Of a DNA stretch of 64,000 nt, positions 13,723 through 38,737 are shown piece after piece. The notes beneath the pieces are model-generated. The model made no database searches, was not told the origin of the DNA, and saw nothing but the letters and a program-made list of their open reading frames with translations. The first letter of the stretch is position 1, and each line of letters opens with the position of its first letter. Both the position numbers and the translations under genes were made by a program. The DNA comes from Meandrina meandrites. Its lineage: Eukaryota > Cnidaria > Anthozoa > Scleractinia > Meandrinidae. The DNA is taken from contig OY855907.1 in the NCBI GenBank assembly GCA_963693305.1, forward strand, positions 37,094,356 through 37,158,355, written 5' to 3'.

Positions 13723-16700
13723 ATGGCGGGCGGCGAGGGTGACGATCTCGCTTCACTGGATGCCAAAGCAATCAACGAGAGTGCAGTGGTTGAGCTGATA
13801 CGAAGAAGGTTCAGCTGTGACAAAATTTATGTGAGTAGAGCACTCCTTGCAAGAAGCTGAAAGAACTTGTTTGTGTTTTATTTTTAGCTTTTCGGGTCGC
13901 TGCAATCTGACGCGCTCCGAAGATAATTGTCATTTTGCTGACGCGCTCCGAAGATCATTGTCATTTTGCTGATTGTTTTCTGTTTTTTAACGTGCTTCAA
14001 TCCGTACAATTGCAGACGGCCATTGGTGATATTTTGCTCTCCGTAAATCCATTTAAAAGTCTTCCGATATACGGTACTGAGGTGAGAGTGCAAATCCTTG
14101 TTATATTGATCTTTGTTGATATTTTAGGCATAATACTGCAGGCACATTAAATATTCAAATACCTGTTGATACGTAGCACTATAAAGCTGTCACTACCTCA
14201 ATGAATTGCGATCCATATTATCGAAGTTATAGACGTAAGAACGGAAGAAATGCGACAAAAACGAAAACAGAATTTGTCAACATATGGCTTGCATGGTCAA
14301 GTGATGTCGCGTGATGCCGCAATATTTAGGCGCAACGTTTGTTTAATTTGTGTTAATTTGATACAGCAGATCAAAACTTAAACAAATCCATTTTATTCTC
14401 GTACGAATGCAGATAACTTATCTTGCTGTAACAGATGTTTCATATCAGGAATATATAACTGCAATGTCTCAGATGCGGCAAGATAAGGGACCCCCAGCAG
14501 TTACATGAACCTGAAGTTTTGACTGTGAATGCATATATTGCCTGCATGATATTGCTAGCATACTTCAAATTTATATCACATGTTAAGTCTATGTTTGAGC
14601 CCAGTGACCCATAAGGCCAGACGGAAAGAGGGAACCACAACGGAAAGGGCCGGGAATTGGTTGTAAACGGTGCAGGGAAGTGGGAGGTTTATAGGTCCCC
14701 CTGTCCCTTCCATTAAGTCAACTACGTGTATAATTTGCCATCATTGAAGTCCAGAAATATTACAATTGAATGGAAATAAATTTAAGAAGTGCAGCTGATA
14801 AATTTTTGAGAGGTTAAGAAGTCAGTACAGCTAATTATATAAAGTGCTGTTGAGCAACCCATGGCCATCAAAGAATGAGCGTAAAACTAATGCTAATGGG
14901 GGGAGGGGTGTGTGATGATTGTGCAATTTTTCTGTTCTCAATTTTTTTTTTCTGTCTTGTGTTTGTGCAGGAATATTTTTTCACCTTTTGCTTGTGTAGC
15001 TAATAACCTCTAACTTGTTGTGCATGCATTTTTTTCTCTTCTTTTACTGTGCAATAGAATTTTGGTAATTGTCCATTACCTCCCCCCTCCCCTAAAAATA
15101 AAATGGTCCATCTTAAGTTGATATGATATTTCCCATCTTGCCAGGTAGTACAAGCTTATCAAAGTTTACCTGCAGGAGAGAAACAGTTTTCGCCTCATGT
15201 GTATTCTAAGTGCAAGGCTGTTCTTAAATCAATGTGCTGCTCTTCAAGAAGTCAGTGTTGTGTTTTGACTGGTGATAGTGCCTCAGGCAAAACAGAATCT
15301 CTCAAGCATATCCTGGACTACATTGTCAATGTGGTTGTACCTACACGGGCCAGCTTGAAATCTAAGTTTTTACAGGTACAGTGAAAAGTAGCTAGAACGA
15401 CGACCAATGAGAAAGAGCTGGGCATTAATATAAGTGTCTTGTGATGCTTATTGTGATATTATCCAAACCTTGGCCTCTAGCTTATTCCAAAGGCTGCATA
15501 TATTGAGGTTAATTTCTTAAAGTTTTCTTGCCAAGAATTTGATAGGCTTAATTAATAAGCTAAGATTTCTAAAGCATCCTGGCAAGTTTTCTTAACCAAT
15601 ATGTCACTGCGTTCTGTGTGGTACTGGCAGATTTTCTTGAGGTCTCACCAGCCAAACCAAGATCTTTTTTTGTATAGTGGAGTAAAACAGGGGAGAGGAA
15701 GCAGGGGGCATGAGGCAGGGGGGCAGGAACCTGCAGGGAAAGTAGAAGATGAGAGGGGTATGAGAGGCAGGAGAAGAGAGGGCAGGAAGTTGACTTCCTT
15801 AGAGGTGGTGAGAGCTGGAAGAAATTCCAAAAAAAAATGCAACATTGTGTTATGTTTTGCAATTAAAAATTACACAAAAAAAGGAAGGAAAGGGAGGGCA
15901 GTTTTTGTAGCATTTAGTATTTCTACTCCCCCCTGGATGCATGGGATGCTAGCTAGTTCATCGCAGGTTCCTCCCCAGCATTCTGTCAAGTAATTACCAC
16001 CAACAATTCCCTGGTACCCATTTATACACCTGGTTGGAGGAAGACACTATCCCATTAGGCCCGCACACCACCCACTCGGGTCAATTTTTCACTGCATAGT
16101 CAATACTACTGAAGTTCAGTTAAGTCTTCATGATCAAGCTAGTTAAGGAGGCTCGCAATGGTTTCCAGCACTTTCCAGCTCTTAAACTTTGATGGGTCAG
16201 TAATGGGGGTCACCAGACTCGTTTTTGAGTTATAAACACTTAAAGGGAAAATTAAGGGTGTTTTTAACAGGTAAAACTGTTGCTATAGTAACCAGTGACG
16301 TCATGAAAATGACCTCAACTTATTCAGCAATGATTGGACATTTGTTTGATGTCATTATTGTAGCAGCAACTGATAAAGATTTGTAGTACTGGCCCATCAA
16401 AGTTTAAGAGATTGAAATTGCTGGAAACCGTTGTGAGCCTCCTTAAATAGAGTAATTTATATTTGACTTGGTAATAAGTAAATCTATTTGAAGTGTGTAT
16501 TTACATTGATGTCAGGTTCAGTTTATTCTTGAAGCTTTTGGGAATGCCATGACTCTACATAACATCAACTCAAGCAGGTTTGCAATGTACTATGAAGTCT
16601 ACTTTTCACCTGAATTCAAGCTATCTGGAGGTAAGTTTAGTGGTGTATGTGATCACGACCTGGATTTTTTTTTTTGGGGGGGGGGGGGGGGTGTTTGATG

Positions 16701-19700
16701 ATCAAATAGTGAATCAATGAATACAGCTTTCCGATTAAACCAATGAATTTATTGTAGCATTGTACAGAGTCAAGCGCGTGGTTCTAAAAACATGTCTGTC
16801 ACACAAGCTAAAATCGCATCTCAAATTACAGTATAATTAAATCCCTATCGTAACTTGGGGGGGGGGGGGGGGTAATATTATTAAGCAATTTGTTTATTTA
16901 TACAAGTGTGGGCATGGCCTTAAATTATTGGCTTTTATGTCTAAATTTTATAGGCAAGATTCACCACTACATGTTGGAGAAATCACGAGTAGTACATCAA
17001 GAGAAGGTCAGTACATATGTGACCCTCCACGGGAAAACAGGGAATAAGGTGAACGCACGCGCACGGCACGGAAGCAACACATTCGCACGGTCTTAACTCG
17101 ACACGCTTATCGTGCGATTATGCAAATTAAAACAATTGATTTCCAGCAACGTGCTTGTGGCCTTTGTTTGCATCTGGCTAACACGGTAGAGCTTTGTTTT
17201 ATAACACGGTAGATTGACACGGTTATTTTCAACACGGTAGATTTCTTAACACGCTAAGCTTCTTAACACTGTAGATTTCTTAACACGCTAGACTTCTTAA
17301 CACGGTAGGCTTAACACGTTAGACTACTCAACACTCTTTCTTCCTCGACCGAGTACATTCAAAAAGTAGATCCGGAAATCCTTTTTATAGCGAAACATTA
17401 CGAAAAGAAATTGTTTGACGAATTACGTGTTTAGCAAAGTTTGTAGACTGCAAGCAGACCCTCTTTCACTTGGTCCGTAAAACGGCTTCTAGTTTTTCGC
17501 TCGCGATTTTTTCCTCGCTCGATAGACTGAGTCAAAGATGAACTGCCCGAGATAAACAAGGTTTGACTCGCAACAGCCCTGCGAACGCTAATTAGTTTTC
17601 ACTGCATGGAATTGGAAACAACTAAGCTTCCCTGGTAAGTACGAACAATAGTGATGAAATTGCTCGATCATTTCCCTACCCGGCGAAGTTATGGTTTGTT
17701 GACACGGCCATCGTGTTAACATTTTGCACACAGTGACACGGTGACCGTGTCAAGATGACCGTGTTAAAAGACCGTGTCACCGAAACACGATTATCGTGTC
17801 TTAACACGCTGCTTTGTTTTAAGCGTGCGAGGAAAAGCAATAGCTTTGCTACTAATGAGGAAAGTGACTTACACGGTGCTACCGTGTTGAGACACGCATC
17901 TTTTGTTTAAACGTGCGAACGTGCCGTGCGCGTGCGTTCACCTTATTCCCTGTTTTCCCGTGGAGGGTCACATATAGAGAAGGCAAATTCTGAAAATAAG
18001 CCATCAGGACTTGTATCTGTTCAATATTTCTTTCACTGGTGGGCTTATATTTTCGGTGAGAGTCTTTGTACAGTTGTTAATCGAACATAACAGGCCTAAA
18101 TCTAACAACAATGTGAATAATAGAACAATGCAATGGGGCCTATAAAAATGAAAATGTTATATGACTGATATCATCGGCTTATTACTTTCAAAGTTTTAAA
18201 ATGAATGAATCGGCAGGCTGCCTGACTTATATTACCATGTTCATTTTCTTTGTAAATTTCACTGTTCAGGGAGGCAAGAATTTTCATATTTTCCACTACC
18301 TTCTGTACGGGATGGATGCAGATCAGCTTCAGGAGTATCATCTTACTCCTGACTATCCTCACAGGTCAGTGAATTGACCATAATCAGTTAAATCAATCAG
18401 TCATACAAGAGTGGTGAATACTTACTTACTTAGGCCCGTCGCTCCAGGTGGAGTGAAGTGGTGAATGGTCAATCAAAAAATATTAAAAATCTCCAGAGTG
18501 TTGGTCAAATTTCAGCTTATGTTTCACTGTCTATAATTTTTTCCTCTACACCATCTTCGCTGGTCACTTTTTATTATATTTCCGTGCATTGTATAGCTAA
18601 ATCTTAAATTTTAGACATTTTTTCAATACTTATAAATAATAATAATACTAATAAATACTGATAAATACTTAATAAATTCAATTGCTATTGTCTGTTATTT
18701 GTACTAGATGTTAATAAAGGAATTCATATCAATTATCATTAATTTAATAACCTCAACTTAACTAAATTCAACCATTTTCCTAAAGGTACCTTGCCTATGA
18801 CCCATCTGTTTCCCCAGAAGATAGCGCTAGCAAAGAAATTTTAAGTGAGAAGTATTCAAAGCTCTTAAGTTATATGGAGTCTGTTGGCTTTACAAATGAG
18901 GTAAGGTTTAACTTAGTATTTGATCAAACAGTAGAATCAAGAAGCAATTTTATTGTCATTTAACAATATTGTTATTAAATATAATTATGTTACTGAGTGG
19001 CATAACCCTGTATTTTAATTCCCTTGTCATTTATTTAATTATTAAAAGTAAATGTCATGATAAGCTGTTATATAATTTGATAATGCACCACTCCCTGGAG
19101 ACAAAATTAATTTAGGTTTAATTGATTGTGCATCGTTTTGTCTTAATTTGGGTCTGAAATTGGGTCTTGTTTAACATAAATTTATTTTTCCCTTAACCTT
19201 GGGCTTTTCATCTTCAAATGAACAAGAAGGAAAGAGAAGGGTATAGAATGGTCCTTGAAAAATCATGGGTCTCGGAAAATTTTAGGCGAGTCTCGAAATC
19301 TCGGCGTAGCAAACTACAGTCTCGGAATCTCGAGCTTGCAAAAAACAAGGCTCGTCTCGGAATCTCGAATTTTGAAATTGACAGAGGCTTCGAGTCTCGC
19401 AAACCAAGCGAAAGTTTTAATCAGTTTGAACCGTCAAACAACAACGGCAACAACAACAGCAAAGCAGAGAGCTACAGAGCGTTAGACTAGCGCTGTAATA
19501 GTCTCGCGCTGGGATTTCTAGATCACGGAGTCTTGCGCTCGGATTTTTGAATCGCGGTGTATCGGGCTCGGATTTGAAAATAATTGTAAGTCTCTGTCTT
19601 GGATTTTGAATGAGGGTCTCGGTGTCTCGGCGAGTCTCAGATTTTACCATTCTATACCCCTAAAGAGGGGTAACCGAAACTGAACTATATTTATAAAGCC

Positions 19701-22700
19701 TTGATTTTCCAACTCGAATACATGTATTATATATGGATTATAACAACATATTTTGGTCTGAAGATTTACCCAGGCAGCACACCTTCCTCAAAATGTTCCA
19801 AGGAATTAATTAAATGCCGGACTGCAAGATTTAGGATCTCTCAATGCAGTTTATCTCTTCACTATAAATTTTGATGGCGGTCAAGACAAGTGTATTTTTG
19901 GCCTGTGATGATATTCAGAGGGGGGTGAGGTGGCCTAATGGTTAGTGCACTGGACTCCAGATCAAATTGCCTGGGTGAGCCCTGGCCATGGCATTGCATG
20001 TGTTGTGTTCTTGGGCAAGACACTATATAGTGCCTCTCTCCACCCAGATATATATAAATGGGCACCGGTGATAGAACTACCATCCCATCCAGGGAGGGAG
20101 GGGGGAGGGGGAATAAGACGTACTCACACCTAGCTAGTTGCTTCATGCTATCGCTATGGAAACCAGGAATTAGGCCTGATGGGCAACTTGGTTGGAATGC
20201 AGACTCAACCTTCACCTTAATTGAACTGTTAAGCATATATATTATTATCATTTTTGCCCAATGCAATGTCAGTGGTGAAGTGGCTTTTGTCTTGTTCCAT
20301 TTTGCAGGAAATTATTAATATTTTGAAGGGTTTAGCATCTGTCCTCCACATTGGAAATGTCACATTTGGCGCAGCAAACCAACAAACAAATTCAGCATTT
20401 GTCAAAGACCCTCAACCTGTCCATTGTGGTAAAATTTACGTTTATATTAAAAAGACCTTACAGTAAATAAAATAATAAAAATATTATTGCAATTCTTAGC
20501 TGATCCCTTTTTTCTTAAATTGCCATAATTTATCTAAGGCATTATATCTATTTTATAAGTTTAAATATTAATATTAATATTAACAAGATTTACTGTTAAA
20601 TATCTATCCAAGCTCATCTGGATGCAGTGTTGAGTGAAGTTTAAATTTGGAATGAGTAGTCACATATTGGGCAAATATTGGACTTATTTTAATTATTACA
20701 TACGTGAACCAATGTTGATCCAATATTGCCTTATAATTTACCATATATGTAACTGTAATATTATAATAGATTTATTAAAATTGTACATTTATCAAAATTG
20801 ATCTTGGACTGAAAAATATAGCAACACGGAAGGTTGATAAAATGTTAGTAATATTGTTATCAATTTCTTCTGTAGAAATACTAAGGCCAGCATTTCAAAT
20901 CAAGCGTATGCGGGAAGAACCAGCTGCTATACTTAGTGTAGATTATATTAATAGCCCATAAAAATTTTGGCCAATCGCAGCATTTAATTTTATTACTCAG
21001 TGGCTATCCTTGTGCAGGTTCCCATTTTAGAAAAGGTAATACTTAGGTGCTTTGATCAAGGTAAAGAATGATATTGTGTGCACTTACATGATTGCTATAA
21101 ATAATAAATTATTATTGCTCCATAATTTGTAGCCAGTTCTCTCCTTGGTGTATCAGTGGATGAATTGGGAGAGGCCCTTGTCACAGGAACAGCCTACCAA
21201 AAAGGTAAATAACAGTACTTGGCAAGTAATGATTTCAGCAAAATATATTAATTAAGCTAGCTTAAAGTTGTTAACTGTATAAAGGAACTTTAAACTGGTG
21301 TGGCTAATTTAAAAGGTGTTTCATTGTTTAATCATGTCATTATATTATAATTTTCAAAGGTGTGAAAGTTTCCATTCAAAAGTCTGTCAATCTGGCAGCT
21401 GAAGGACGGGATAACCTGGCCAAAACTCTCTACAGTCGGCTGTTCAGTTGGCTTGTGTTAAAGGTTAACAGCTGTTTAAAGGAAAGAGCTGGAGATGACG
21501 AGCAGAGGTAAATCACAGAATTAGCGAACACCTAGACAACAAGGCAGTGTTGAAACATGCTAAACTATAAAGTAGTTGGTAGTCAAGTCAAAGCAAAGGA
21601 CTCTCCAATCCATAGATCCTTTTCAAGTTCAAATCACTTAATCTGCTGTATGTCGTATTTAATTAGTATTGTAGTAGTGTAATTTTGATGTGTTATTTTT
21701 TTCTAGTGTTTATTTAATAATATTTATTTAATTCAGGACTCTGTTTAAACTAGCTTTATAGCTAAACCAGATGCTCCTGTATAAATATTAATTTAAATAA
21801 GAAATAAAATAAATAAAAATTCCAATTGTCGCATCCCTGAAAGGCCGGCTCTAGACGTTGTGGAGGCAGTATATTAATATTATACAGATCAAAGTTGTGT
21901 GCCCTTGCTAGTGATTTAGTTGCTGGACTTGTAATCCAGAGGTCCTGGGTTAAATCCGCCTCCCTGCCCCTGGATAGATTTTTGTTTGGGGTTTCAAATT
22001 CAACTCCTTCATGCTTTGTATGTTAAGCTAACAGTTACTATCCCAACTGTTGGAATTTTTAACAAGTTTCTGTTTAAAATATATATTATACATTCTTTAT
22101 AATCATATTCATTAATGGCCAGTACTTGTTTAGTCAGTAATATGTTTATCTTATAAATTAAAGTTATTTTATATTTTTGACAAGACCCAGAGTCATAGGT
22201 ACATAATATGTGCAAACAGCACTGCAGCAATCTGCACAGATGGCAATTTACACTTATTTACATGTTTTTGATGCTAGGTGAAATTATTTTTGGAGGGATT
22301 TTTAACTGGATGTTTTTCTTAATGCCTTTTCAGGCATGCTGTTGGCCCATCAGTGGGATTGCTGGATGTCTTTGGATTTGAGAGATTTGAAATTAACAGT
22401 CTTGAACAACTATGCATCAACACTGCAAATGAACAACTGGCGTATTTCTACAACCAGCGTGTATTTGTTTGGGAACAGGTGCAGTGCAGTTATTTTAAAC
22501 ATTAATGAATTGTCCTGTTCCTACAGGCTTTTGTCGTCTTCACATGGTGCAGTCGCTATATAGTTGTATCTTACAAAGTCTTCATTTATATATGAAAGGT
22601 CCTTTTCTTAGTAGCTTTGTTGTGAACAAGTTATACATGTAGTATATGCTGTCATTTACCATTTTCAGGCAGAACTTGAATCTGAAGGGCTGCGAAATCA

Positions 22701-24790: not shown

Positions 24791-24823
<33 letters not shown>

Positions 24824-26179: not shown

Positions 26180-26212
<33 letters not shown>

Positions 26213-26215
26213 GTT

Positions 26216-26246
<31 letters not shown>

Positions 26247-26249
26247 CTG

Positions 26250-26327
<78 letters not shown>

Positions 26328-27049
26328 GACTCTTTCCAAGATGTGTTCATTTCCTCTTTTTCAAATCTAACCCTAACACTAACCCTAAACTGAGTCCTCG
26401 AAATGAGTTTTACTTTAATAATACTTTATTCAAATACAGTATACAGTATACAAATGGTATTTGAAAAGGAGAACCATGAGGTTATCCCTATTTAGGTCCC
26501 CTAACTAAAATTACAATCACTGTCCACTGTCATATGTTCACTGTCTTGCAAACCAAACTCATCAGCATTTCCATAAGTAAGGTTAATGTACCAGAACTTG
26601 TTTTGAAACAAAGGTAAAAAAGGAAACCAACTTAAATTGGTTCATACAGCCTTACCTTAATTTAATTGGCTCTGATCTGTTACTTACAGTGTGATGTGAT
26701 TTTCGTATTTCCATTTTCCTCTAGACTGTCAGCTGTACCTACTATTTTGAGGCAAATGAAAAAGAACAAAAAGTAAGGGATATGAATAAGTCTAACATTA
26801 GTTTCACTAAGGTTGATTTTTTGTTTACATCATTATTCTTTTATCTTCTCATTAGCTTAGGTGTTTTAGAAACTGAATTTAATCAAGCAAGCCAACAGAT
26901 GCCAATAATTTACATCATTTGTGTCATTTAGTAACCATTGCCATTGTGGGAATATTGAATAAGATATTTTCTTTGAATAATATCTGTTTTGTAGGATGAT
27001 GATGATGTCAGCAAAGGTCGCCCTATTAATATTGTTCATTAACCAGTTT

Positions 27050-27088
<39 letters not shown>

Positions 27089-27089
27089 G

Positions 27090-27121
<32 letters not shown>

Positions 27122-30100
27122 TCATCAGAAGCAGCAACAACAAGAATAATAATTTATTACACATAATAATATGGTCAATAAAAATATTTACCTGGGTTAT
27201 TAATGAATCATTTTGCAGGAATCCAACTATAAGGCACAAGGCAGCGGTGTAAGTCTTATTGCAAGTGATAATGAATTGAAATCCCTAATGCACTTGAAAA
27301 TCTTGTCTCTTTTCAGCTGATAGGGTAAATTATGACGAGTAATGGCGGTAATAATTGTAGTTTTCGTCAAATTTAGCAAATTGACAGGGGACATACAATA
27401 CAGTAAAGTGAGTAAGATGAAGGAAAATAAAAGAGGGAAAAAGTTGGATATTTCACCCGTTTTTCTTTGTCTTCTCCTTCTCCACACTTTTCCAGACGAA
27501 CTAACTGGAAAGACCGCTAGCCAGGTCTCTTGCGGAACGGTAGCGCTAAACTCGTACCCAGACCGTCTCGCTTTTCACTGCTCTTTGTTGCCTAACACAA
27601 ATGACAACTTTCTGAATAATGAAGTGAAACTTTGATTTATTTTTAGTGTTCAACACTTGGCCGCCACTGAGACTCATCAAGCCAAGCAAGGTTTTCACAC
27701 AGTTGGATCACAGATGAGGGTGAGTAGCTAATTCTGCTACGCTTCGGGTAACCTAAGTTTTCTTAATTCTCCCCTGGTATTACAGTACACAAAATAGTTA
27801 ACTTTGTAAGAAAATCAGAACCTTATTTTCGTGAGCAATTAAAAGCGAGTTAGTCTCATTTGGATTGTCACGCAGTGGTGCTCTCTCCAAAGCGTTGCGT
27901 GACGACGAGAGTATTAAACACCTGCAAAGGTGACAAGTCAATTTTTTCCTGCCACATTAAAATACGTAAAGTTCAAGTTGAGATATAGATTTTGATACAG
28001 ATTTGGATTTGGCGGCCAAGCTAAAAGCCTCCATATAGCGGTTCCTTCAAAGTTGTTCCCCTAGTACTTTAAGCTTATTTTAATGGATCAAAATGTATTC
28101 CATTTAGAAATGTTTGTATAACCCTTTCTTTCGCAGACGTCTATTGCAGAACTGATGGAGAAGGTGCTGTCATGCGAGGCTCATTTTGTCAGGTTTGGTT
28201 TTTTCATTTGAAGCTTTGTGAAAAGTGGTCCAGTCGATACAGCAACGATTTTTTAATCCGGACGTAGTGGGTTTGAATCTTTCTAAGGTCATATTTTTTT
28301 TTTCCGTTCTGTGTGGTCCCTCATTTCCGTACTAGGCCCAAAGCTAAGACAGAAATACATGGATTTATTTTCAGCGCTTAAAAAATTACTATTAAGGTAA
28401 TGCTTCGATTTCGAGATTGTATAATCATGTTCATGCTCGTGGCTCAACATTGTATAAAAATACAAACACACTCCTTTTATTTGGTTCTTGCTAGGGATCG
28501 TTCATAACAGAAGCACGATTGCGAGGAAATAAAACTTTTGAACGTTGTGCGCACACGTTTTCATGGTGAAATATAAGGGCTCTTGAGCTTGCACTCACTC
28601 GTCCCTGAGCGGTTTTCATTTGAGTGCCGTGAGAACAAGACCAAAGTAATCACTCTGGCCAATCACAAAGGACACAGACATTCCACCGAACCAATCAAAA
28701 CTCGAAGTAAAAACATGTAGCCGACGCGAAGCGCGGGAAAACACGTGTGAGCGAATAATGATTGGTTTTCCTTAAGAAAGTGGCGCGAGTTTTTTTAACC
28801 AATCACAAAACCAAATCAAACACAAAATACTTTGGACATTCAAGTGGAAATTACTCTACCTGCAGCGTGGTTCACCTTCAAGTCCTTTAAACTTGATTGG
28901 TTGTTTATTTGATAGGTGCATCAAACCAAATTGGCACCAGTCTCCTGATCGTTTTGATCCTGACGCGGTTCTCGCCCAAGTGAGGTCGTTAGCTGTTGTT
29001 CAGACGGTGCAAATAAGGAATCTTGGTTTCCCTGTTTGGTTTACATTTGATGCCTTTGTTAAAAGGTACTGACCTTTATTTACTCTTGTATTGCATTCTG
29101 TTTTTATCTTTTTCTGACAGCCAACAGTTACGCTTTAGTGTAGCCACGCAACTTTGCATCCAAAACGTCTAAGTTTTTAAAAACATTCCTTCGAATTCCT
29201 TGTACTGCAAACCATATTTTTCTAAATAATATAAAAATCATAAAGTCTGCTCTCTCGTCTACAATCAGTAATTATCTCCAGTTACGTAACATGAAGCGGC
29301 CAGGAATATTAGCACTCCCTGTTGGATGGGATGCTAGGCTATCACAGATCCCCCACCCCTCCTTACAAGCTTATGAGAGCTGCTACGGTACTGAATGATT
29401 TACTCACTTAATCTTTCATCCTTGGAGACCAGGAACAGTTAATTGGCGAGAAACTAGTTAAACCCGGCAAAAATCGGAGCGATGAGGGTTTCAAGATGAG
29501 CTGTACGAACCTCACTTTTGTCGCTTCGATTTTGTCGGGTTTACTTCGTTTCGCCTCGACTAACTGCCCCTAGGTTTTCGAGGATGTTAATCGTGGAACC
29601 AAATTAGGGGTGCATGTTTATAAAGTACCATACCGTAAAATTCCGGTTATAAGCCCCCCGCTTATAAGCTCCCCCGGTTATAGACCCATCTACCTGAAAA
29701 CAATAAAATACATCCGGTTATAAGCCCCACGGATATAAGCCCCCCTCTGCTGGATGACAGTACTGGACAGGGCTAAATGTTGCTTGATTATGACTTTAAA
29801 ACGTATTTCAAGCAACACTGCCGTGGCTCGTTTCGAAACGTTTTTTTTTATTCCGCTTATAAGCTCCCCGGATATAAGCCCCTCCGCTTATAACCCCACC
29901 CAAAACCCCTTACGAAGTCGTATAAGCCCAGGGCTTATAACCGGAATTCTACGGTATACGCCAATTTTTCCGACTGTATTGTTGTTAATTAATTGAGAAT
30001 TGAACTGACTACAAATAAACGCTCATTTAACAGGTTTGGCATTGTGATCGGTTTGCTGCCAAACGCTCACATCAAGGACATGAATCAAACCTGTCAAAAG

Positions 30101-33100
30101 ATGCTTCGTCAGCTGGCTGATCCCAGAGGATGGAAGATAGGAAAAACCAAGGTACATACAAATTCTCCTCACTGGCCTCTATACTTTGCTAAGGTTCTAG
30201 CTGGGAGAATTTGATAGTGCATCATTCCCTATCCTACAAGCAGGCTCTTTTGTTTGGGGTTAGGGTTTCTACGCGAGCGGCAAAGCCCGCTCGCATCTCG
30301 GTCACGCGACAGCCAACGTGAACCAATACACGAGAGCTGCTCGCAGTCTTATTTAGTTTAGTTTGTAAGAAATTAACCAGTAACTGAATTTTTACCGTTG
30401 TTTACAGGTCTTTTTGACATATTGGTGTTTGGAAAGGTTAAACGTGTTTCTGGATCGACTGGGATCTGTGGCTGTTGTTATACAGAAAGGTAATTCAGAG
30501 ATCTTCGCTGTCAACGAGAGATCTCCGCTAAACTGCACAGTGAAACAGGAGTTGTCAGCTCGTACAAAACTAGCTGGATATCATGCGGTTGTGCTGCGTA
30601 ATGCTTACATGATGCGAATTAGCTATAGAGTTCCGTCCTGATATGTAAAGACAATGCTTATATTTGATCAGTAACTGCCACGGGCGTAAAAGTGGCTTCA
30701 AAAAGACGCAAACAGATTGAATCTCAGATCTAGGGGGACCAAAAGAGGTAGACAATTAAGAAGTCACTGAGAGGTACAAAATTAGGGGGCTAGTAGAAGT
30801 ACACAATTAAGTGACCAAAGAGGGCCACGAGAGGTACACAAATAAGGGGCCACAAGAGAGGTTGCTCTACAGATAATGATGATCACAATACAAGTCGTTC
30901 TTCTTTAGTTGTTATTGTTGCTGTTGCAATCATTAAAAGGAATGTTTTACAGTTTTCAGAGGTTGGCGGGCCAGAACATTCTTTTCCAGGCTTAAACGAC
31001 TCAAAGTGGTACAAGAAAACACTGTCAAGAATTTTCTAGATCCGGTGAGTGTTGAATATAAATGTAAACCGGCCTAGAAACTTGCTCTCCTTTTGCTTGG
31101 TCTGTTATTTATTACTATGTCAACATTCAAATTTTCTAGCCCCATACATTCCGTATGATAATAGGTACGAGAATTCGATAAACATAATTTTCCTTTCGTT
31201 TGTTCATCAGTTTACTCTCGTGATTTTATTAACGTGGATGCACGAACTCGTACTTAAACCTGTCTACAACCTTTCGACCTCGTAAAAGGAAAAAAAACTC
31301 GCGAACTCTTAATTTTCTGAGAGACATAATGGAAATTCCACAGGAATTTTAATATTTGATGTTTGATTAAAAAATTGATACCGCTTTCACCTGCATTGGC
31401 GGAATACCCATGCAATAGTCGTTACAATTTTGCGTTATTCTTGCAGATCGGCAGTGGAAGCGAATTGGTATTTCAACATAATTCCAATCAAGCGTTGGAA
31501 GAAGATGCGAAGCAAAAGCTGAGACTAAACGAGGTACTGCAGCGTGCAGCGTGCAGCGTGCAGCGTGCAGCGTGCAGCGTGCAGTGTGTGATACAACTTA
31601 TTAGTATATACCACACAAGTGAATTGCGCTGTTCGCTGAAGTCAAAGAACCGTGAACTTAAAACTAGTTACAATGCCTTTCGGGATTGTCGTGTGTACTT
31701 TTCTCAAAGTAGCTGTACGAAGTTGTTTAAAAAATTTTTAAGGCTATATGTACAAAGTTTAAAAGATGAATTAAAAACCAAACATTTTCGACTTAAAAGT
31801 CTGTTGATGCCGTTTAGGTCGAAAACGTTTGGTTTTTAATACATCTTTTAAACTTTGTACATATAGCCTTAAAATTTTTAAACACTGTATGAAGTTGTAG
31901 CTTGCATTGTTCATTTCGTATTGGGGAACACTTGTGTCGTGTGTTTTATATTTATAGACTACGCCTTCTACTCTGTCCAGCTTGCAAAAACGAATTCGAC
32001 CCGACGCTTGGCCAATAACCCACATTAAATTATGTTTTCCTCACTCGCCCTATGCGGCTGTACACTGTCAGCAACAAGTACAAACCTTTCATTTGCTAGC
32101 TTGCGAGCAGGCTCTCCGCGCGAAAAAAAAATAAGACCAACTGTGGTGACGATGCTCGCAAATCAAATAACCTCCTTCCCTTCTTTTCTTTTTTTTTTTC
32201 GCGCGGAGAGCGCTATTCATTTGCGGGCATCGTCATCACAGTTGGTCTTATTGACACTTGTTACTGCTGTCTCTTGTTTAGCAAGCCAACGTGCAGAGAC
32301 AAGCATGGAGTCCCACCTTGTTGAATCAAAAGAGTCCCTCTGCTTCCTCACAGGCAACAGGTTTGTAGTTTATTGTTATTGTTTCCGCCTTGGAAAAGGA
32401 CGTGGTGCAGGTATGCGGGTGATGGAATTTACCCACAACTATTGAGTCACTTTTTGGTGTTAAGATAACTTTGAAGGTAGAAGAACATCAAAGTGGTAAT
32501 AGAAATCCAAACCGAACAAGGATGGTTAAGATTGAGGCGGATTATGAACAAACCCTTGAAAAAAATCGTGTTGCAGGTTTTTTAAAGTCGGTAACAGTCC
32601 TTGGTATCGGAAAAAGTCGATTCTCTTATGCTCCCCCTAGCCGGTGAGCAGGCTTTCTTCTTGGGGAGTGCGCGAGCGGCGCGCGAAGCCGCGAGCTACG
32701 TCCCCAAAGTGAGCGTGCAGGCTATACTCTCCCAGGATGGTATGGTAGCCCATTGCAGACCCCCCACCCCCCGTCTCCTCCAAACACCTTGTTGAGTTGC
32801 CCCAATAATTTGCCGGATCCCATTTGGGAAGAGGCGCTATGAGAGTCTCAAGAACACAACATAATGATCCTAGCCCGCAAGCCAGCGGGTGTTTCGGTGA
32901 ATGCGCAAAGCCTGTGACATGTCACCGTTTACGACAGAACCCAGACCAGCTTGAGCCGAGAACACCTAGGCACCAGACTGGTTGGCCTGTACTCGAACGA
33001 ACCGTTCAATCCGGAGTCTGGCTTACTACCACAATGGCTTCACTAGAAATTGTTTTGTCACTGAATACGTACAGACGGTCATCGGAGCAGATCCAACTTA

Positions 33101-36100
33101 ATCAGAAGGGGAACGATCTTGACAAAATAGGAGAATGTTTAACTAGCGATCTTGCAAAGGAATCTTGCAAACTTGTGTTTCATGCCCTTCTTGTTTTCAT
33201 CCATACATGCTGAAACCTGCTTGCTAAACTAGTCAGTAGAAATTATATTTAGCTGTCTTTTAAATGTGGTCCCATTGAGTTTCGTATTTGATCGATAATT
33301 GAGTAATGTAATTTCTGATGATTGAGTAATGATATGGGAACGATTAAGACAGAATTTAAAATTCTGAAAGCCCGAGTCGTAGTAGTAGTAGTCCTAGTGC
33401 TCAGTATAGTTTTGTTTAATTTTGGTTCATCTCTAACATGTCCGGTTCCTTCTTTCCTTAGGTTTTGATGACATAGATTCCCCGGATGGATTTTCACCGA
33501 CATCTCCTCGCCCCGGGTCTCCGCAGAAGAAAGTCTCAAACTTATCACTGGGTTCTATCTCAGATCTGTTCGGCCCAGACTCCCCGACTCGCCCCGGACC
33601 CCCACGGTCAAGGGAATCCGACTTGTCCATAATGTCCATTGAATCGACGTTTTCAGTTGTGAGTTGTTGTTTTTTACATTAGTCATGTACATTGTAAATA
33701 AATACACTGAAACGCACCAACTTTCATTGTTTGTGGAATCTAGGGTTAGTTTGGTTAGCTCACAAGTTCCATTATATTTGGAGAACTGAAAGAAGGGGGA
33801 GGGGAGGGTCTGGGAGTCAGAAATGGATACTGATGTAATAATAATGTTGGCCCGACCCCCGTCCGGTCTGCAAACATTTTTTTTCAAAATGCGAACTAAT
33901 TTTTTACACATATCGTGTTTGCAAGCAATTTATTTTGTCTTTTTAGGCCCTGCGAACAATCTTTTAAATATTTTTCATACCCCCCTCCAGAAGGATTTGC
34001 ATTTTTGAAATTGATCTTGTGGTTTTCTTTTGAAGAAACGTTTTTTAAGTTAAGTTTTATATTATTCACTTACAGGAATCTGACGATTTTGACGCTGCGC
34101 CACAAGTTTGGTGTAAAATCACCTGTTTCGAAAGAGAATCACCTCGAGGAGAGTTCTTTATTGATCGCCCTTCAATAATTATTGATGGCTCTAGCAACGC
34201 GTTCGATGTAACAAGGTACTTTATAGCATAGATTTATAGCATGCGAACACGTTCACCTCTTGGGGATTCGGGCGTTCCTCCCACTTTCTAACTCCCGAGC
34301 GCCAAAATCCCCAAGGGGAGATCCCACGGGAAAACTCTACCAAAATTATTAGTAAACCTGACTACCGTATTGTTAAACAATAGTTTTGACTTCAGTGAAC
34401 CGCTTTTGTAATTGTTGTGTTTTATAATTTCGTATCAAAAACTGCATGTCTTATAAGTGAACATTTCGAGATACGGTTGACTAATGAAAATAGAGCGAAA
34501 TTAAACTACGGCGTTTCGATGTCATCTTGGCGCCATTATCGAGTGGAAAGATAACGATTGCAGTTTCGAGTTTAAATACAAAGAAAGGTAACAGAGTATA
34601 TTAGAATATCACCTTTATATTAGAATGTTTTAAAAAACGTTTCACGGTCATTAGCGTTCAAAGTGTCAGCGCGTGCTGTATTTTAATTAAATAAGTACTT
34701 TCGCACGTATTGCGTCCAGCTGCATAATTAGTTTGGGTCTTCGTTCACGAATTAGGAGCATTTCGTGAACAAAACAATCCAGTTTTTTATGGCATTTCTT
34801 TAACACGCGTACGGAAAACATTTTTGTTAGATTAGGGTCTGCGACACCGTGACTTCTTAAATAACTTATATCGAGCTATGTTTTATAAAGCCATTTTACG
34901 ATGCACAAAATTCACGTAAAAAAACTAAAAACAATAGTCTACGATAGATGGAGAACACTTAAGATTTAATAATAAACCAAAATGGAACCAGGATAGTTAA
35001 GATTGGATTAAGATGAAGTTGGATTACGATTGGAGTTGTTAACTTGCTTCCATTGTCACTTTCCAGAATCGGCCTGGGAACCTTACCACCGAGTTCTGAC
35101 TCTAAGGTTACGAAAGTACGTAGCTTCGTTGGAAAGGTGAGCTCTCTTGTTTAATATTTTCTCTGAGGAGCAATTCTCAAGTGGATATCTACTCTTCATC
35201 AGAGCAGTTTGAATGGATTGTAGAAAACTAAAACCAAAGCAAACACTAGTCACAGAAAACGTAACCCACAATTGACCAGCTCGCAGAGGCTTGCTCGCTC
35301 ATTTTATAAAGTACCTCCACCGTAATTTCAAAGATATCGGTTTTATAAATTCCGTCCAAGCATTGGCATTATTGTAATTTTGTTTAACACAATATCGTCC
35401 TTTGTTTGATCAACACCAAGACTTTGGCCAAGGCATGCTCAGAGTTTTCATTGTCGATTTCCAGCTAATCAGCAGTCTCGACCCCAGAGTCTTCGGTTTT
35501 TCTTCCCCTATGCACATGCGTGAAAGAGCTCTGGAGTCGAGAATGGCCAATCAGCTGGATGAACTCTGAGCCTGCGCACAACGACAGGAAGTCTTTGAAT
35601 TGCGGAGTCTCAAAAAGGACCTGGCCAGTCTGTGTTCTTGGTGTTAACCAAAAAAAGCTCGCTCTTTATACGAGATAGTGCTTGGCAAAAACTCGTGCGA
35701 CATGTTCCAACCATAAGAGCAAACTTCATTTCAACCAATCAGAAGTAAGACAAAATTAATAGTGACTTAGGTTGCACGCGTTTTCCCGCGCTTAGCGACG
35801 GTTGTACATTTTCCCGCGCTGTGCACCAGTTGGACATATTTCCGCGTTTCATAACGTTTGACTTTGTTTTATGACAGTCATTACGCCATAAAATAGAACT
35901 TTTTTGTGTTTTTTTTTTCGGTAGTATAAATGTTTCTGTCTTCTGACCATGTGTTTAATTTGTTATGCAGGGTGTGGAGATTGTGTATGATGAACAGGGC
36001 AATGTTTGGGCCACTCGAGGAAGCAAGAGTAACATTTTTGTCAAGGTAGGAGAGAGCGTGCAGTGATCTGAAAATTTGGGTCGCCCACTACCTCTCGGAA

Positions 36101-38737
36101 CGAGTTACTTCATTGGTTCTTTAAACTGATAGATAACAGGTCATAACAATGCCCCTAGTCCTGAATAACAAAAGAGGTAGTGTTTACAGCGGGCGAATGA
36201 AAATAGAGGTTCCAGAGAGGTAGTGTCTTACTGGAAAATTTACGCTGATACAAAGAACGTTGACGCTTATGGAACTCATGCATACCAACTCTGATGCTGT
36301 CTCTCGTCGAACTTGAACCTGCTTTGACTTTAACAATGTTTGACGAGATTTTTGTGCATATCACTGGCAGATGATTATAACCCGTGAGAAAAATGAAGAC
36401 AACTTCTGTCAAACTTTTGTCGAACAACTCTCGCCGACTCTTGTTTTCATTTGATTCAGCTTTAGTACCTAGATTTGGAAATTCCTCTGAATCTGAATAT
36501 ATTACTTGCATGGCGAGGATCACACACCACGACATTCTCGTCCCCAGAGGCCGCGATCCTTTTGGTCTGCGCCAGGGATCAAGACCTCTGGCCGGTCCCA
36601 ATTTCTGAGCATGTGTAGAGTACTCGCCCTGTGTTTTTCAGCCAATCAGATTTGTCTGATTTGACAATGAGTCATTGAATCGCGGACTTACGGTGTTTGA
36701 GGCGCCAGAGGTCTCGATCCCTGGCGCAGACCAGAAGGATCGCGGTCTCTGGGGACGAAAATGATACCACGAGCAAGTAGTGTTTTGGTAATGACCGTTC
36801 TTTACGGTGAGATTGATTTTGTGTTCATATTATGAAAGCTGTTGGTTGATTTGTTTGTAGGGTCATTTCCTATCCGAGGAGGTGATCGCTTTACAAGGTG
36901 TGTTGGAAAAAGATACCACACTGCAGGTAGGTTGTTCAGTTACTTATTCATCTAATTTTAGATTTTAGACCAGGCGTATTGCTAACCCTACCTCTTCCCC
37001 CCACCACCCCAGAAATTCGTCAGGTTGCCCTGACGGTTTGGCAGGACCACCCATTTACATGTATACACCCTGGTGGAGAGAGGCACTGTTAGAGTAAAGT
37101 GTCTTGCCCAAGAACACACTACAGTGACCCCGGCCAGGGCTCAAAACATGGACTTGGCGTTTCAGAGTCCAACACGCTAACATTATGATTGACTAAACTA
37201 CAATTTCTCGTTAATACATTCCATACGTTGTTAACGTACATGTTACGAGAATTAAGACACCGGTCATAACGGGGAAATAGACCATACTCGTATTCTCGCT
37301 GTTGTACTGAAACTAGCTTACAATGAAAGCTATCCAAATGACATGATTCTGGTATTTATGATATTCCCCCGCATAAGCCTCCATTGCAAGCTACATCCAG
37401 TCCAACATACCGAGAATACGAAAATGGTCTGTCGTCATCATGACATCCCTCTTTCTGCGTTTCAGGTTTTTGACTGGGAATCTTTCGCTGCCACAGTTCG
37501 CCATTACTGCTCGCAGTCGAAGAATTTTGACTCCTCAATCGAGACTAGCATCTTGTCGAGTACCTCGATCTACTTTAGCTTTGTAAAAGATGGAGAAGAT
37601 GACGTTGACACGCCATGTTGGGTTCAACTTGACGTGTTGCCAGCCATGGAACAAGGAAAAGGTAGTGTCACACGAGGAAAAGATGAAAAAATCACTTTTA
37701 TTGTCACGTAAGCAAAGGGTAACTTGTAAAGGTTACTTGAAATGGCACGCAATTATAAGGAAGTGTTCCGAGAAGCAAGGAATCCCCTGAGGAAAAGATG
37801 AGAAAAAGGAAATCCCACGTACAAGATATCTCCTGAGGAGGAGGGAGTTCCCTGGGGAGATCTCTTCTGAGGAGATGTCTCCCGAGGAAGAGGGAATCCC
37901 TAGGGGAGGAGATCTCTTCTAAGGAGGAGGGAATCTCACGGGGACGAGATCTAGGGAGGAGGGCACCCCTAAAGAGAGGAAAGCCCCAAGGGGAACTTTC
38001 TGTTGAATAAGGGGAGAAAAAAATTGTCACGTACCACGCAGCTGTCTGCTTTTAGTTTCACTGCGAAGTTTGAAACCAACAGAAAAAAAATCAAATCCTC
38101 AAGTTACTGGTGCGGCATCGTCGCATTGAAAATCGAATTAAGAATACGTTGATTTTGCTTCTTTACAGCTGCCTGTAAATATGCCCGCGATAAAAAACTG
38201 CAGGAGAAACAAAAGATGATGAACTCGTTGCCGCCAATTCTTCGTCCCAAAACAAAGACATCACGTGAATTGGCCGCTGTGGCGCATTTTCAACAGAAGA
38301 TTCGCCCCCGCCGGTTCGTCGACACGGACAAGTTCAATCGAAAGCAGTGGGCTCGAACAGAAGTGGCTATGAATCCGTTTCTGTATGGAAAAAAGGACGA
38401 ACTCACTATGGTTCGTCAGAGCCCCTTGAAAGGGCTTGAAACGAAGGACAAGAATAACCCTGAAGAAAGCTTCGATGGCGCCTCCCCCTTGCCCCAGTCC
38501 CTGTCGGATGCATTTGGCAATAGTTCTGACGTGACGGATGCAGGACCTGGGCAGATCAATGAAATAAACTTGGAATTTACGCAGGGGATCGGGAATGAGT
38601 TGCAGAATCAGGAAACGAAAAATACGGTGACATCGCCATCTGGTCGCGAAAAACCCAAGAAAGTCTGGGCCAAGAAAAAGTTGGCTGACGACAAGGCTGA
38701 AAAGGCAAAGAAAAGATCTTCGTCTAAATTTAAGTAA
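13723..38737 (+). CDS. Unconventional myosin with C-terminal MH2 (SMAD-like) domain, 32 exons
   Basis: Joined exons (1265 residues, all phases consistent): 13723-13830, 14016-14081, 15145-15375, 16516-16630, 16954-17006, 18270-18364, 18786-18900, 20308-20428, 21133-21204, 21360-21507, 22334-22478, 22669-22749, 23950-24114, 24578-24653, 25451-25529, 26725-26772, 27219-27248, 27647-27719, 28137-28192, 28916-29065, 30034-30151, 30408-30489, 30953-31044, 31447-31533, 32282-32360, 33462-33658, 34076-34215, 35067-35136, 35971-36045, 36861-36926, 37466-37661, 38169-38737. All introns are GT-AG. The start ATG has an in-frame TGA at 13675-13677. Order: motor (1-715), one IQ motif (740-750), short helical region, Ser/Pro-rich linker (about 815-895), MH2 domain (905-1075), basic tail. 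An actin-based ATPase role follows from the motor; the MH2 suggests binding of a phosphorylated or SMAD-pathway partner (inference). The motor class is unresolved: motifs recall class III, but there is no kinase domain and no N-terminal SH3-like subdomain. Confidence 0.93.
13907..13968 (+). repeat. 31-bp tandem duplication in myosin intron 1
   Basis: Two adjacent copies begin CTGACGCGCTCCGAAGAT and continue with (A/C)ATTGTCATTTTG; they differ by one base. It is a simple local duplication 46 bp before exon 2. Confidence 0.85.
15925..16080 (-). mobile_element. SINE fragment, reverse orientation
   Basis: The words TGGATGCATGGGATGCTAGC, GGTACCCATTTATACACC and GGTTGGAGGAAGACACT are the reverse complement of the body found in the SINE copies at 12694 and 57308. 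The tRNA-like head is not preserved. It sits in myosin intron 3. Confidence 0.65.
16143..16446. mobile_element. 304-bp TTAA-flanked MITE (piggyBac-like) in myosin intron 3
   Basis: The ends read TTAAGGAGGCTCGCAATGG and, inverted, TTAAGGAGGCTCACAACGG. The inverted repeats extend through TTTCCAGCA and the inner block CTTAAACTTTGATGGG. TTAA at both ends (16143-16146 and 16443-16446) is the usual piggyBac target duplication. The interior carries AATGGGGGTCACC followed by ACTCGTTTTT, shared with the element at 23254. Confidence 0.8.
16668..16875 (+). repeat. Two long G runs (about 18 and 16 nt)
   Basis: G homopolymers lie at about 16674-16691 and 16857-16872 in myosin intron 4. Similar runs occur near 46828, 46876, 61450 and 63446. 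They can form G-quadruplexes and are prone to slippage, so base counts here are uncertain. Confidence 0.85.
17018..17972. mobile_element. 955-bp DNA transposon, 53-bp perfect TIRs, internal ACACGGT array
   Basis: The left TIR (17018-17070) begins TGTGACCCTCCACGGGAAAA and the right TIR (17920-17972) is its exact reverse complement over 53 bp. TA dinucleotides flank both ends, compatible with a TA target duplication. The interior is packed with AACACGGTAGA, AACACGCTAGA and their inverse (ACCGTGTT), about 20 occurrences in both orientations. There is no ORF longer than about 70 codons, so it is non-autonomous. It is in myosin intron 5 and starts only 11 bp after the exon 5 donor. Confidence 0.9.
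19239..19660. mobile_element. About 420-bp MITE with GGGTATAGAATGG termini
   Basis: The left end GGGTATAGAATGG and right end CCATTCTATACCC are inverted copies. The interior is built from GTCTCG words (GTCTCGGAATCTCG, GAGTCTCGAAATCTCGG) in one half and related ones in the other. Flanks both contain AAAGAG but the duplication is not clean. It lies in myosin intron 7. Confidence 0.75.
19918..20215 (+). mobile_element. tRNA-derived SINE in myosin intron 7
   Basis: The head GAGGTGGCCTAATGGTTAGT with CACTGGACTCCAGATC keeps the A box, but the B box is degraded (GGGTGAGCCCTGG). The body shares GCCTCTCTCCACCCAG, ATAAATGGGCACCGG, CATCCCATCCAGGGA and TAGGCCTGATGGGC with other copies. Confidence 0.8.
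21905..21975 (+). mobile_element. tRNA-Thr(TGT)-like pseudogene or SINE head
   Basis: GCTAGTGATTTAGTTGCTGG is followed by an anticodon arm CTGGACTTGTAATCCAG (5-bp stem, loop with TGT) and a T-arm-like CCTGGGTTAAATCC. The T loop lacks one base (GGTTCAAATCC is expected) and the acceptor stem does not pair. It is therefore a decayed tRNA-derived sequence in myosin intron 10, different from the GGCCTAATGG SINE family. Confidence 0.55.
23254..23912. mobile_element. 659-bp TTAA-flanked element in myosin intron 12
   Basis: The left end is TTAAGGTGATTCCACTGAA and the right end, inverted, is TTAAGATGATTCCACTGAA. TTAA is present at both boundaries (23254-23257 and 23909-23912). The interior contains AAAAATGGGGGTCACCGTGC plus TCGTTTTTG near 23350, and a second near-identical copy (GGGGGTCGCCGTGCTCGTTT) near 23742. 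There is no coding capacity. The right end is 37 bp from the exon 13 acceptor. Confidence 0.82.
24682..24848. mobile_element. Palindromic MITE in myosin intron 14
   Basis: AAGAAATAGAAAACATGT at the left is mirrored by ACATGTTTTCTATTTCTT at the right, with inner inverted blocks GAAGTTTGGGAGAAC and GTTCTCCCAAACTTTC. The centre includes ATTGGCGAGTGTTTCC. No clear target duplication was found. Confidence 0.65.
25840..26150 (+). repeat. Retroelement-like 3' tail with 58-bp duplication
   Basis: Repeats of the type TTAGTGTTGTAAGTAATT at 25850-25945 are followed by two copies of a 58-bp unit starting ATACAAAGTTCTTACTCG (26033 and 26091), then by the TAA microsatellite. Tandem short repeats before an (A)-rich simple repeat resemble the 3' end of a non-LTR retrotransposon. 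No reverse transcriptase is present, so this is a guess about origin; the duplication itself is clear. Confidence 0.5.
26150..26330. repeat. (TAA)n microsatellite
   Basis: About 55 near-perfect AAT/ATA triplets with two short interruptions lie in myosin intron 15. The minus-strand open frame of poly-isoleucine here is an artefact of the repeat. Confidence 0.97.
27051..27124. repeat. (ATC)n microsatellite
   Basis: About 23 ATC triplets with one interruption (CGATC near 27087) lie in myosin intron 16, some 95 bp before the 30-nt exon 17. Confidence 0.97.
28611..28857. mobile_element. Second copy of the 5611 MITE family, myosin intron 19
   Basis: The element starts GAGCGGTTTTCATTTGAGTG and contains CCAATCACAAAGGACACA, GCGCGGGAAAACACGTGT, ATGATTGGTTTTC and AAAGTGGCGCGAG in the same order as 5611-6105. 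Its right end (CATTCAAGTGGAAATTACTC) is the degraded inverse of the left. It lies immediately upstream of exon 20. Confidence 0.7.
29631..29956. mobile_element. 326-bp MITE with TACCGTARAATTCCGG termini
   Basis: The left end TACCGTAAAATTCCGGTTAT and the right end (inverse TACCGTAGAATTCCGGTTAT) match over about 27 bp. The phrase (C)GGTTATAAGCCCC recurs inside at least six times in direct or slightly altered form. TA flanks suggest a TA target. It is in myosin intron 20. Confidence 0.82.
30408..31044 (+). other. IQ motif (light-chain/calmodulin site), exons 22-23
   Basis: The residues [11 protein letters not shown] (740-750) match IQxxxRGxxxR perfectly and are split by the intron between 30489 and 30953. 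No second IQ follows; the next residues ([19 protein letters not shown]) are helical. A single light chain, probably calmodulin, is predicted on a short lever arm. Confidence 0.9.
31536..31588 (+). repeat. (GCAGCGT)n heptamer minisatellite beside exon 24 donor
   Basis: About seven exact copies of a 7-bp unit begin a few bases after the exon 24 donor (31534). The donor itself is GTACTGCAG, so the array may have grown from the first intron bases. Copy number is likely variable. Confidence 0.93.
31723..31884. repeat. Foldback with about 65-bp arms in myosin intron 24
   Basis: The left arm (31723-31792) includes AAGGCTATATGTACAAAGTT and AACCAAACATTTTCGAC. The right arm (31818-31884) is its inverse with few mismatches, around a 25-bp loop. 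A strong RNA hairpin is expected in the pre-mRNA. It is probably a MITE. Confidence 0.85.
32063..32270. repeat. Interleaved inverted repeats (A-B-A'-B') before exon 25
   Basis: A is 32112-32131 (CTCTCCGCGCGAAAAAAAA), B is 32130-32162 (starts AATAAGACCAACTGTGG), A' is 32191-32210 and B' is 32220-32252. A' is a perfect inverse of A; B' is an inverse of B with two mismatches over 33 bp. A weaker outer pair (GTCAGCAACAAGT near 32068, and its inverse near 32256) encloses them. The order A-B-A'-B' cannot form nested hairpins; only A-A' or B-B', or a pseudoknot, is possible. Exon 25 starts at 32282. Confidence 0.8.
32735..32960 (-). mobile_element. Degenerate SINE fragment, reverse orientation
   Basis: The phrases CATTTGGGAAGAGGCGCTAT, CAAGAACACAAC and CCCAGGATGG resemble the reverse body of the GGCCTAATGG SINEs, but divergence is high. 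It lies in myosin intron 25. The assignment is tentative. Confidence 0.4.
35408..35651. mobile_element. Foldback MITE in myosin intron 28
   Basis: The left end GATCAACACCAAGACTTTGG and right end TCTTGGTGTTAACC are inverted, and inner blocks (AGAGTTTTCATTGTCG, and its approximate inverse GACAGGAAGTC) continue the symmetry. The centre carries TCTCGACCCCAGAG. Boundaries are approximate. Confidence 0.6.
36538..36758. mobile_element. 221-bp palindromic element, ends TCGTCCCCAGAG
   Basis: The left arm TCGTCCCCAGAGGCCGCGAT continues through CTTTTGGTCTGCGCCAGGGA; the right arm is its inverse with few mismatches (about 55 bp per arm). The same terminal motif is found in the short foldback at 62394-62455. 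It lies in myosin intron 29. Confidence 0.85.
37010..37200 (-). mobile_element. SINE copy, reverse orientation, myosin intron 30
   Basis: Body words GGTGGAGAGAGGCACTGT and GTCTTGCCCAAGAACACA precede a degraded head (GGCCAGGGCTCAAAACATGG, then AGAGTCCAACACGCTAAC), which is the reverse complement of the tRNA-like head. Order and orientation are consistent with a nearly complete copy. Confidence 0.7.
37775..38000 (+). repeat. Purine-rich degenerate tandem repeat, myosin intron 31
   Basis: Variants of GAGGAGGAGGGAATCCC and GGGGAGATCTCTTCT alternate about six times. The strand is almost all purine over 200 bp, a composition that can form triplex DNA. It lies between the MH2-coding exons and the last exon. 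Confidence 0.7.
38169..38737 (+). other. Basic C-terminal tail of the myosin-MH2 protein (exon 32)
   Basis: The last 189 residues start with a charged stretch ([18 protein letters not shown], then [12 protein letters not shown] and [10 protein letters not shown]) that looks conserved in composition. A hydrophilic, probably disordered region follows, and the protein ends in a Lys-rich stretch ([20 protein letters not shown]). No known domain is recognised. The tail does not end in SSxS. It could bind membrane, RNA or actin, but the sequence does not decide. Confidence 0.8.

Follow-up and report, generated by a model that had tools for sequence, protein, structure and literature searches.

The gene described here, from the coral Meandrina meandrites, is confirmed by its sequence-derived model to encode a myosin motor and a SMAD-type MH2 domain in one chain. 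The MH2 is closer to that of the Drosophila protein Expansion than to those of SMADs, and its L3 loop is short and free of the basic residues that the SMAD loop holds; on both counts it is an Expansion-type MH2. Taken as a whole, the explanation we judge best, and consider slightly the likelier to be right, is that of an apical, actin-based adaptor whose MH2 would dock its cargo without reading phosphate.

The window, the whole 64-kb stretch of DNA that was analysed (GC 40%, no N), carries the gene on its forward strand at 13723-38737. A first-pass annotation had proposed 32 in-frame exons and 1265 residues, in the order motor, IQ motif, Ser/Pro linker, MH2 and basic tail. An independent rebuild from splice signals and open frames, which took the coordinates of that annotation as its starting point, gave the same counts and the same order, with identical junctions at 31044/31447 and 33658/34076, GT-AG borders at 31/31 introns and a single stop at the end. 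Without the micro-exon at 27219-27248, already a splice candidate, the chain has 31 exons and 1255 residues; alignment with seven homologues exposed a gap of 10 residues, which this exon fills. The model leaves out candidate exons near 14362 and 24340, since in each case the neighbouring exons fuse in frame to myosin-like sequence without them.

Exon 1 (13723-13830) holds the start codon, and the Oculina orthologue has a similar start. The motor is encoded by exon 2 (14016-14081), exon 3 (15145-15375; P-loop GDSASGKT, aa 101-108, 15271-15294), exon 4 (16516-16630; switch I NINSSRF, aa 151-157, 16561-16581), exons 5 to 10 (16954-17006, 18270-18364, 18786-18900, 20308-20428, 21133-21204 and 21360-21507), exon 11 (22334-22478; switch II DVFGFE, aa 386-391, 22365-22382), exons 12 to 15 (22669-22749, 23950-24114, 24578-24653 and 25451-25529) and exon 16 (26725-26772), whose basic stretch we take to be the loop-2 region. 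Exon 17 is the micro-exon of 30 bases and 10 residues, placed on the basis of the homologue alignment. The motor continues through exon 18 (27647-27719), exon 19 (28137-28192), in which RCIKPN (aa 626-631) begins at 28191, exon 20 (28916-29065), in which it is completed, to 28931, and exon 21 (30034-30151). The motor match ends in exon 22 (30408-30489) at aa 718, about 30416, and the IQ motif (aa 738-749, 30474-30972) begins in the same exon and is finished in exon 23 (30953-31044). Exon 24 (31447-31533) codes for lever and linker, exon 25 (32282-32360) for linker, exon 26 (33462-33658) for Ser/Pro-rich linker and exon 27 (34076-34215) for the end of the linker and the start of the MH2 (aa 905, at 34106). 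The MH2 runs on through exons 28 (35067-35136), 29 (35971-36045), 30 (36861-36926) and 31 (37466-37661), ending at aa 1066 (37630). Exon 32 (38169-38737) holds the tail and the stop. Between exons 24 and 25 the intron contains two inverted repeats, one at 31731-31879 (67-nt arms, 94% complementary, 15 nt apart) and one at 32111-32252 (37-nt arms, 92% complementary, 49 nt apart).

The first-pass identification of both ends of the protein holds up in Pfam. In the 1255-residue version Myosin_head matches at 1.9e-173, and MH2 at 7.1e-26 over residues 895-1056 (905-1066 of the 1265-residue chain). For the IQ motif the score is 15.8 bits, below the curated cut-off of 20.3. Serine, threonine and proline make up 39 of the 114 residues of the linker (exons 24-27). 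The tail, 189 residues from aa 1077 in the last exon, includes a 17-residue stretch conserved among corals (aa 1134-1150, 38339-38389) and a basic C-terminal region beginning KKVWAKKK (aa 1240-1258, 38657-38713); 13 of its final 28 residues are K or R, and it ends in KRSSSKFK, 199 residues past the MH2 match.

The motor is myosin-III-like. With the motor region as query, 8000 candidates were scored, 4210 passed 1e-20 and the best 120 of these were examined. Eight of the best 120 of 4210 carry an MH2 (three named corals, two coral-like proteins, Lingula, Lytechinus and Liolophura) and six an SH2; most of the other 106 go by the name myosin-IIIb or contain the kinase domain of that protein. Coral and coral-like MH2-myosins rank first in this set, followed by those of Lingula and Lytechinus and then by MYO3B, with Lytechinus (502 bits) and rabbit MYO3B (498) almost tied and Liolophura ranking below Lingula and Lytechinus. 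The motor of MYO3B is 35-37% identical to that of the coral; unlike myosin III, the coral protein has no kinase domain, a single weak IQ motif and another tail. In a motor tree of 19 rows, with a single ambulacrarian row, cnidarian and bilaterian MH2-myosins are joined at only 56/86, a value that neither establishes nor rejects this group or a place of the coral motor in class 80. Class-36 myosin-chitin synthases of molluscs, a rotifer and an annelid, which differ from the coral protein in having a chitin synthase within the same chain, do not appear among the best 120 of 4210. The six SH2-bearing myosin-III-like motors (P0142, P0173, P0183, P0192, P0233 and P0239) come from a sponge, three fishes and two further sources; SH2-tailed myosins are also described from filastereans and choanoflagellates in PMC3942036.

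The coral motor keeps GKT, SSRF and GFE, and adjoining positions are unusual: the P-loop GDSASGKT and the switch I sequence SSRFAM differ from other aligned motors. Because the catalytic loops deviate in this way, the motility of the coral motor is uncertain. DVFGSE stands at switch II in the Acropora homologue and in two others, P0004 and P0005. The predicted motor of the Xenia homologue (P0007, residues 2-713; GESGSGKS, CNSSTRC and DVFGWE) is very divergent, with a branch of 5.39 in the motor tree, and looks as if it were decaying; the MH2 of the same protein is still 40% identical to that of Meandrina.

Against all solved structures, the coral MH2 matches Drosophila Expansion (4r9p) most closely, at 67.2 bits (E 1.2e-17); the best SMAD structure, SMAD2, reaches 40.3 bits (2.2e-9), and Expansion scores 26.4 bits against its own best SMAD. 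Profile comparisons agree in direction. Bilaterian myosin MH2s match Expansion at E 1e-45 with 39% identity, cnidarian myosin MH2s match those of bilaterians at 4.9e-38 and Expansion at 4e-27, and SMADs match Expansion at 3.7e-15. Expansion and its relative Rebuf (Drosophila exp and reb) thus hold the nearest solved MH2 by sequence. They differ from the coral protein in architecture: the 120 Expansion-type proteins among the matches listed have no motor domain, the MH2 of fly Expansion lies in the N-terminal part whereas that of the coral is C-terminal to the motor, and the tails differ. The CM2 motif of Expansion (DDPYYCGxRARxPNF) is not convincing in the coral tail by eye; NPFLYG was considered as a counterpart of DPYYCG, and the likeness, again by eye, was too weak.

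A tree of 40 MH2 domains places Expansion among those of myosins. Its Expansion-type rows are 4r9p and 24 of the 120 proteins among the matches listed (there were 68 further matches), selected for less than 82% identity, at least 140 residues and no X; one myosin homologue, P0006, in which the first part of the MH2 is missing, was excluded. SMADs separate at 100/100, and the Expansion clade (100/99) lies among the myosin MH2s, with cnidarians on one side (94/87). Expansion joins Liolophura at 93/87, these join Lingula at 97/91, and Lytechinus, the third of the bilaterian myosin MH2s, is added at 95/83, a branching order that broadly resembles the one expected from animal relationships. When SMAD7 and Xenia are removed, the position of Lytechinus collapses. 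SMADs stay apart and Expansion stays among the MH2-myosins, nearest to the brachiopod and the chiton, in the full tree, the tree without SMAD7 and Xenia and the reduced trees. The grouping of Expansion with lophotrochozoan MH2-myosins has bootstrap values of 92-97 in the full set and four reduced sets; that of Expansion with all bilaterian MH2-myosins drops to 69/29 when Lingula is left out, and the best tree of two reduced sets lacks it. When all MH2-myosins are forced into a single clade that excludes Expansion, p-AU is 0.018 for the full set and 0.046, 0.071, 0.060 and 0.136 for the four reduced sets, and forcing the three bilaterian MH2-myosins together gives 0.044. A nested position of Expansion within the MH2-myosins is favoured, though not proven.

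A separate character points the same way as the trees: the N-alpha segment of Expansion, the 20 residues that precede the MH2, is matched in all three bilaterian MH2-myosins in an anchored test with 20000 permutations. Scores as high were reached by 0 permutations for Liolophura, 8 for Lingula and 63 for Lytechinus, counts that are generous because the test was designed after the alignment had been seen. In a sliding control over 400 positions, the true one ranked first for Lingula and Liolophura and second for Lytechinus. The segment is not matched by sequence in the Meandrina protein (10084 of 20000 permutations as high) or in six other cnidarian rows, where the lowest count was 1520 of 20000, for P0003. 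An unanchored HMM for the segment found nothing clear, with negative scores in 9/9 myosins; the lowest numbers of shuffles scoring as high were 84 of 2000 for Liolophura and 123 for Lingula. Since the segment is absent by sequence, the coral MH2 appears not to be built exactly like that of Expansion. The Expansion family is described as conserved in Mollusca and Annelida (PMC4388265), and motor-less Expansion copies may therefore coexist with MH2-myosins in these phyla. A link between Expansion and MH2-myosins was not found in the titles and abstract openings of the open-licence papers listed by the searches; PMC4388265, PMC9894549 and PMC4305360 do not use the word myosin anywhere in their main texts, and absent too are Rebuf, trachea, expansion protein and CG13188 from those of PMC3942036 and PMC5583752.

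The coral protein is a single-chain unconventional myosin, with a myosin-III-like motor, a short lever bearing one weak IQ motif and a flexible Ser/Pro linker, followed by an Expansion-type MH2 and a tail whose C-terminus is basic. The analysis shows the structure of the gene, its domains, its kinship, the Expansion type of the MH2 and the altered L3 loop; what we infer concerns its location, its cargo and whether it moves or only tethers. The motor would walk on, or hold, actin bundles in microvilli or other apical protrusions, a placement suggested by its likeness to class III and by general knowledge of that class. The MH2 would serve as a phosphate-blind docking module that brings a membrane or matrix-secreting complex to the protrusions, or anchors it there. 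A motor-borne, phosphate-independent adaptor of Expansion type is in our view rather probable. Export of chitin or apical matrix is the best single guess at the cargo pathway, because the insect members of this MH2 lineage, Expansion and Rebuf, are needed for chitin export by chitin synthase; for chitin in particular the guess is a doubtful one. The deposition of extracellular chitin by the synthase Kkv is reported to depend on Expansion and Rebuf; in flies, chitin translocation needs the MH2, and complete apical accumulation needs CM2 (PMC9894549, PMC4305360). Chitin synthase genes are present in the stony corals that were queried in PMC10216261. It is on these grounds that we propose the apical adaptor with this guess at its cargo. 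Counting against the proposal, the fly MH2 by itself is neither localised nor sufficient, and binding between Kkv and Rebuf was not found (PMC9894549). Against chitin export, the octocoral Xenia has an MH2-myosin, though octocoral tissue is described as being without chitin; PMC10216261 reports that description and yet finds chitin synthase genes in octocorals.

The alternative that survives best, and which is a real possibility although we would not bet on it, keeps the adaptor and changes the load: the MH2 would dock an unrelated cargo, for instance a receptor complex or a scaffold at the tip of a protrusion, and the part that Expansion plays for chitin would be an arthropod novelty. Among the best 120 of 4210 motor matches, the nearest relatives without an MH2 are MYO3 and the SH2-tailed myosin-III-like proteins, and the tails of these serve other cargoes. 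The coral tail is only 15-21% identical to those of the three bilaterian MH2-myosins, and work cited by PMC4388265 also gives Expansion a part in receptor tyrosine kinase signalling that controls the terminal branches of the trachea. What speaks for chitin instead is that the MH2 lineage is specifically common to the coral protein and Expansion, whose best-worked role in the papers examined is chitin deposition (PMC9894549, PMC4305360).

The first-pass annotation had read the protein as an actin motor for carrying or anchoring phosphorylated partners, or for tying proteins of the SMAD pathway to actin. In SMADs, phosphoserine is read by the loop L3. Between FVK and TPCW the coral has 7 residues (DGEDDVD, acidic) where SMADs have 13. 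Measured from FVK to W, the stretch is 14 residues in 11/11 myosin MH2s (aa 1050-1063 of the coral protein, 37580-37621, in exon 31), 20 in 5/5 SMADs and 14 in 119/121 Expansion-type proteins, with 15 in the other two; fly Expansion and the coral are equal in length here. Three to five acidic residues lie in the loop of 11/11 myosin MH2s, with no basic residue in 8/11 and one in 3/11. The coral MH2 does belong to the same Pfam family as that of SMADs, retains their GKGV, FVK and TPCW landmarks and has a real profile similarity to them (E 4.1e-20). However, the SMAD-type long L3 loop, the MH1 domain (by Pfam) and the C-terminal SSxS of SMADs are all absent from the coral protein, Expansion is closer than every SMAD matched, and SMADs keep to their own side in the MH2 trees. 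PMC4388265 showed that Expansion itself plays no part in TGF-beta signalling. Phosphoserine-tail binding by the coral MH2 is unlikely because L3 is shortened by six residues and acidic, and the carrier or tether reading as a whole is left unsupported and very improbable. The phosphate-independent adaptor appears to be the better inference.

The motor and the MH2 also occur together elsewhere. A query with residues 880-1255, the MH2 plus tail, returned seven proteins (E at most 10, 3804 candidates), from Oculina, Stylophora, Acropora and Xenia together with P0003, P0004 and P0005, and 7/7 carry both PF00063 and PF03166; bilaterian homologues pair the two domains as well. The stony-coral orthologue from Oculina patagonica (P0001) likewise has 1265 residues and is 87-88% identical overall, with 88% in the motor, 86% in lever and linker, 90% in the MH2 and 86% in the tail. 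P0003 (690 aa, contig 2787 b), P0004 (1261 aa, longest contig 4126 b) and P0005 (1242 aa, contig 5136 b) have motor and MH2 in a single frame, with 2.1-3.8 kb of coding sequence. These contigs are probably transcripts, because at 2.8-5.1 kb they are far below the 25-kb span of the coral gene. As all seven MH2-plus-tail matches carry both domains, the join is not due to chance and a mispredicted join is unlikely. That the exon model merged adjacent myosin and MH2 genes, for which we see next to no prospect, is contradicted by the seven doubly equipped homologues, three of them on such short contigs, the identical length of the Oculina orthologue and the same domain order in bilaterian relatives.

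The first-pass statement that MH2 domains are described in SMADs and insect Expansion only does not stand, since myosins with an MH2 tail have been published. A 2014 paper (PMC3942036) described myosin-III-like proteins that bear an MH2 at the C-terminal end, from the choanoflagellate Salpingoeca rosetta and the sponge Oscarella carmela, and suggested that MH2 arose first on myosins and joined MH1 later to make SMADs. In 2017, class-80 myosins with a C-terminal MH2 were defined in Ambulacraria, and similar orphan myosins, polyphyletic as a set, were described in molluscs and annelids; by motor, these lophotrochozoan orphans are sister to, or grouped with, class-36 myosin-chitin synthases (PMC5583752). 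Like the coral protein, all of them join a myosin head to an MH2 placed C-terminally in the same chain. The pairing is thus a known architecture, not a new one, encountered here in Cnidaria, a phylum not named in the available portions of PMC3942036 and PMC5583752; the published proteins are from Ambulacraria, annelids, molluscs, a sponge and a choanoflagellate. No function for MH2-myosins is given in the portions of the literature searched.

Expansion and Rebuf are described as a protostome family that is obligatory for insect chitin synthase, in a model that includes a partner termed Factor X (PMC9894549). It is conceivable, if rather unlikely, that they are what remained, as the tail, of an ancient MH2-myosin after the loss of its motor, and that MH2-myosins are the original, motor-borne device for export of chitin or apical matrix. 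The motor would then supply the apical positioning that Expansion must obtain otherwise, and the MH2 would license export. The octocoral Xenia, to judge from its long predicted motor branch, may be losing its motor in a similar way. The Expansion-type reading, which replaces the SMAD inference, makes matrix export, instead of SMAD signalling, the matter in question and could be tested in flies, anemones and urchins. If these proteins form one lineage, each side informs the other: a role for the motors of corals and sea urchins can be predicted from fly genetics, and the motor-borne form leads one to expect that Expansion acts on an actin-rich apical surface. The same material bears on the idea put forward in PMC3942036 that MH2 arose on myosins before joining MH1.

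Other features lie on either side of the gene in the window. Downstream, at 42613-61082 (+), there are long low-complexity ORFs, three of them with no Pfam match, and a CVCRKPHGN stretch that by eye resembles the start of a PHD finger. The same region contains a BRK domain at 50988-51320 (+; 3e-12) and a DEAD-box helicase fragment at 55284-55700 (+; 6.9e-13), and may be a DIDO1/PHF3-like gene. Upstream, a long unbroken ORF at 7379-10003 (-) encodes a C2H2 zinc-finger protein, and another unbroken ORF, at 4096-5406 (+), encodes a glycosyltransferase (Pfam GT4-conflict, 5.9e-90).
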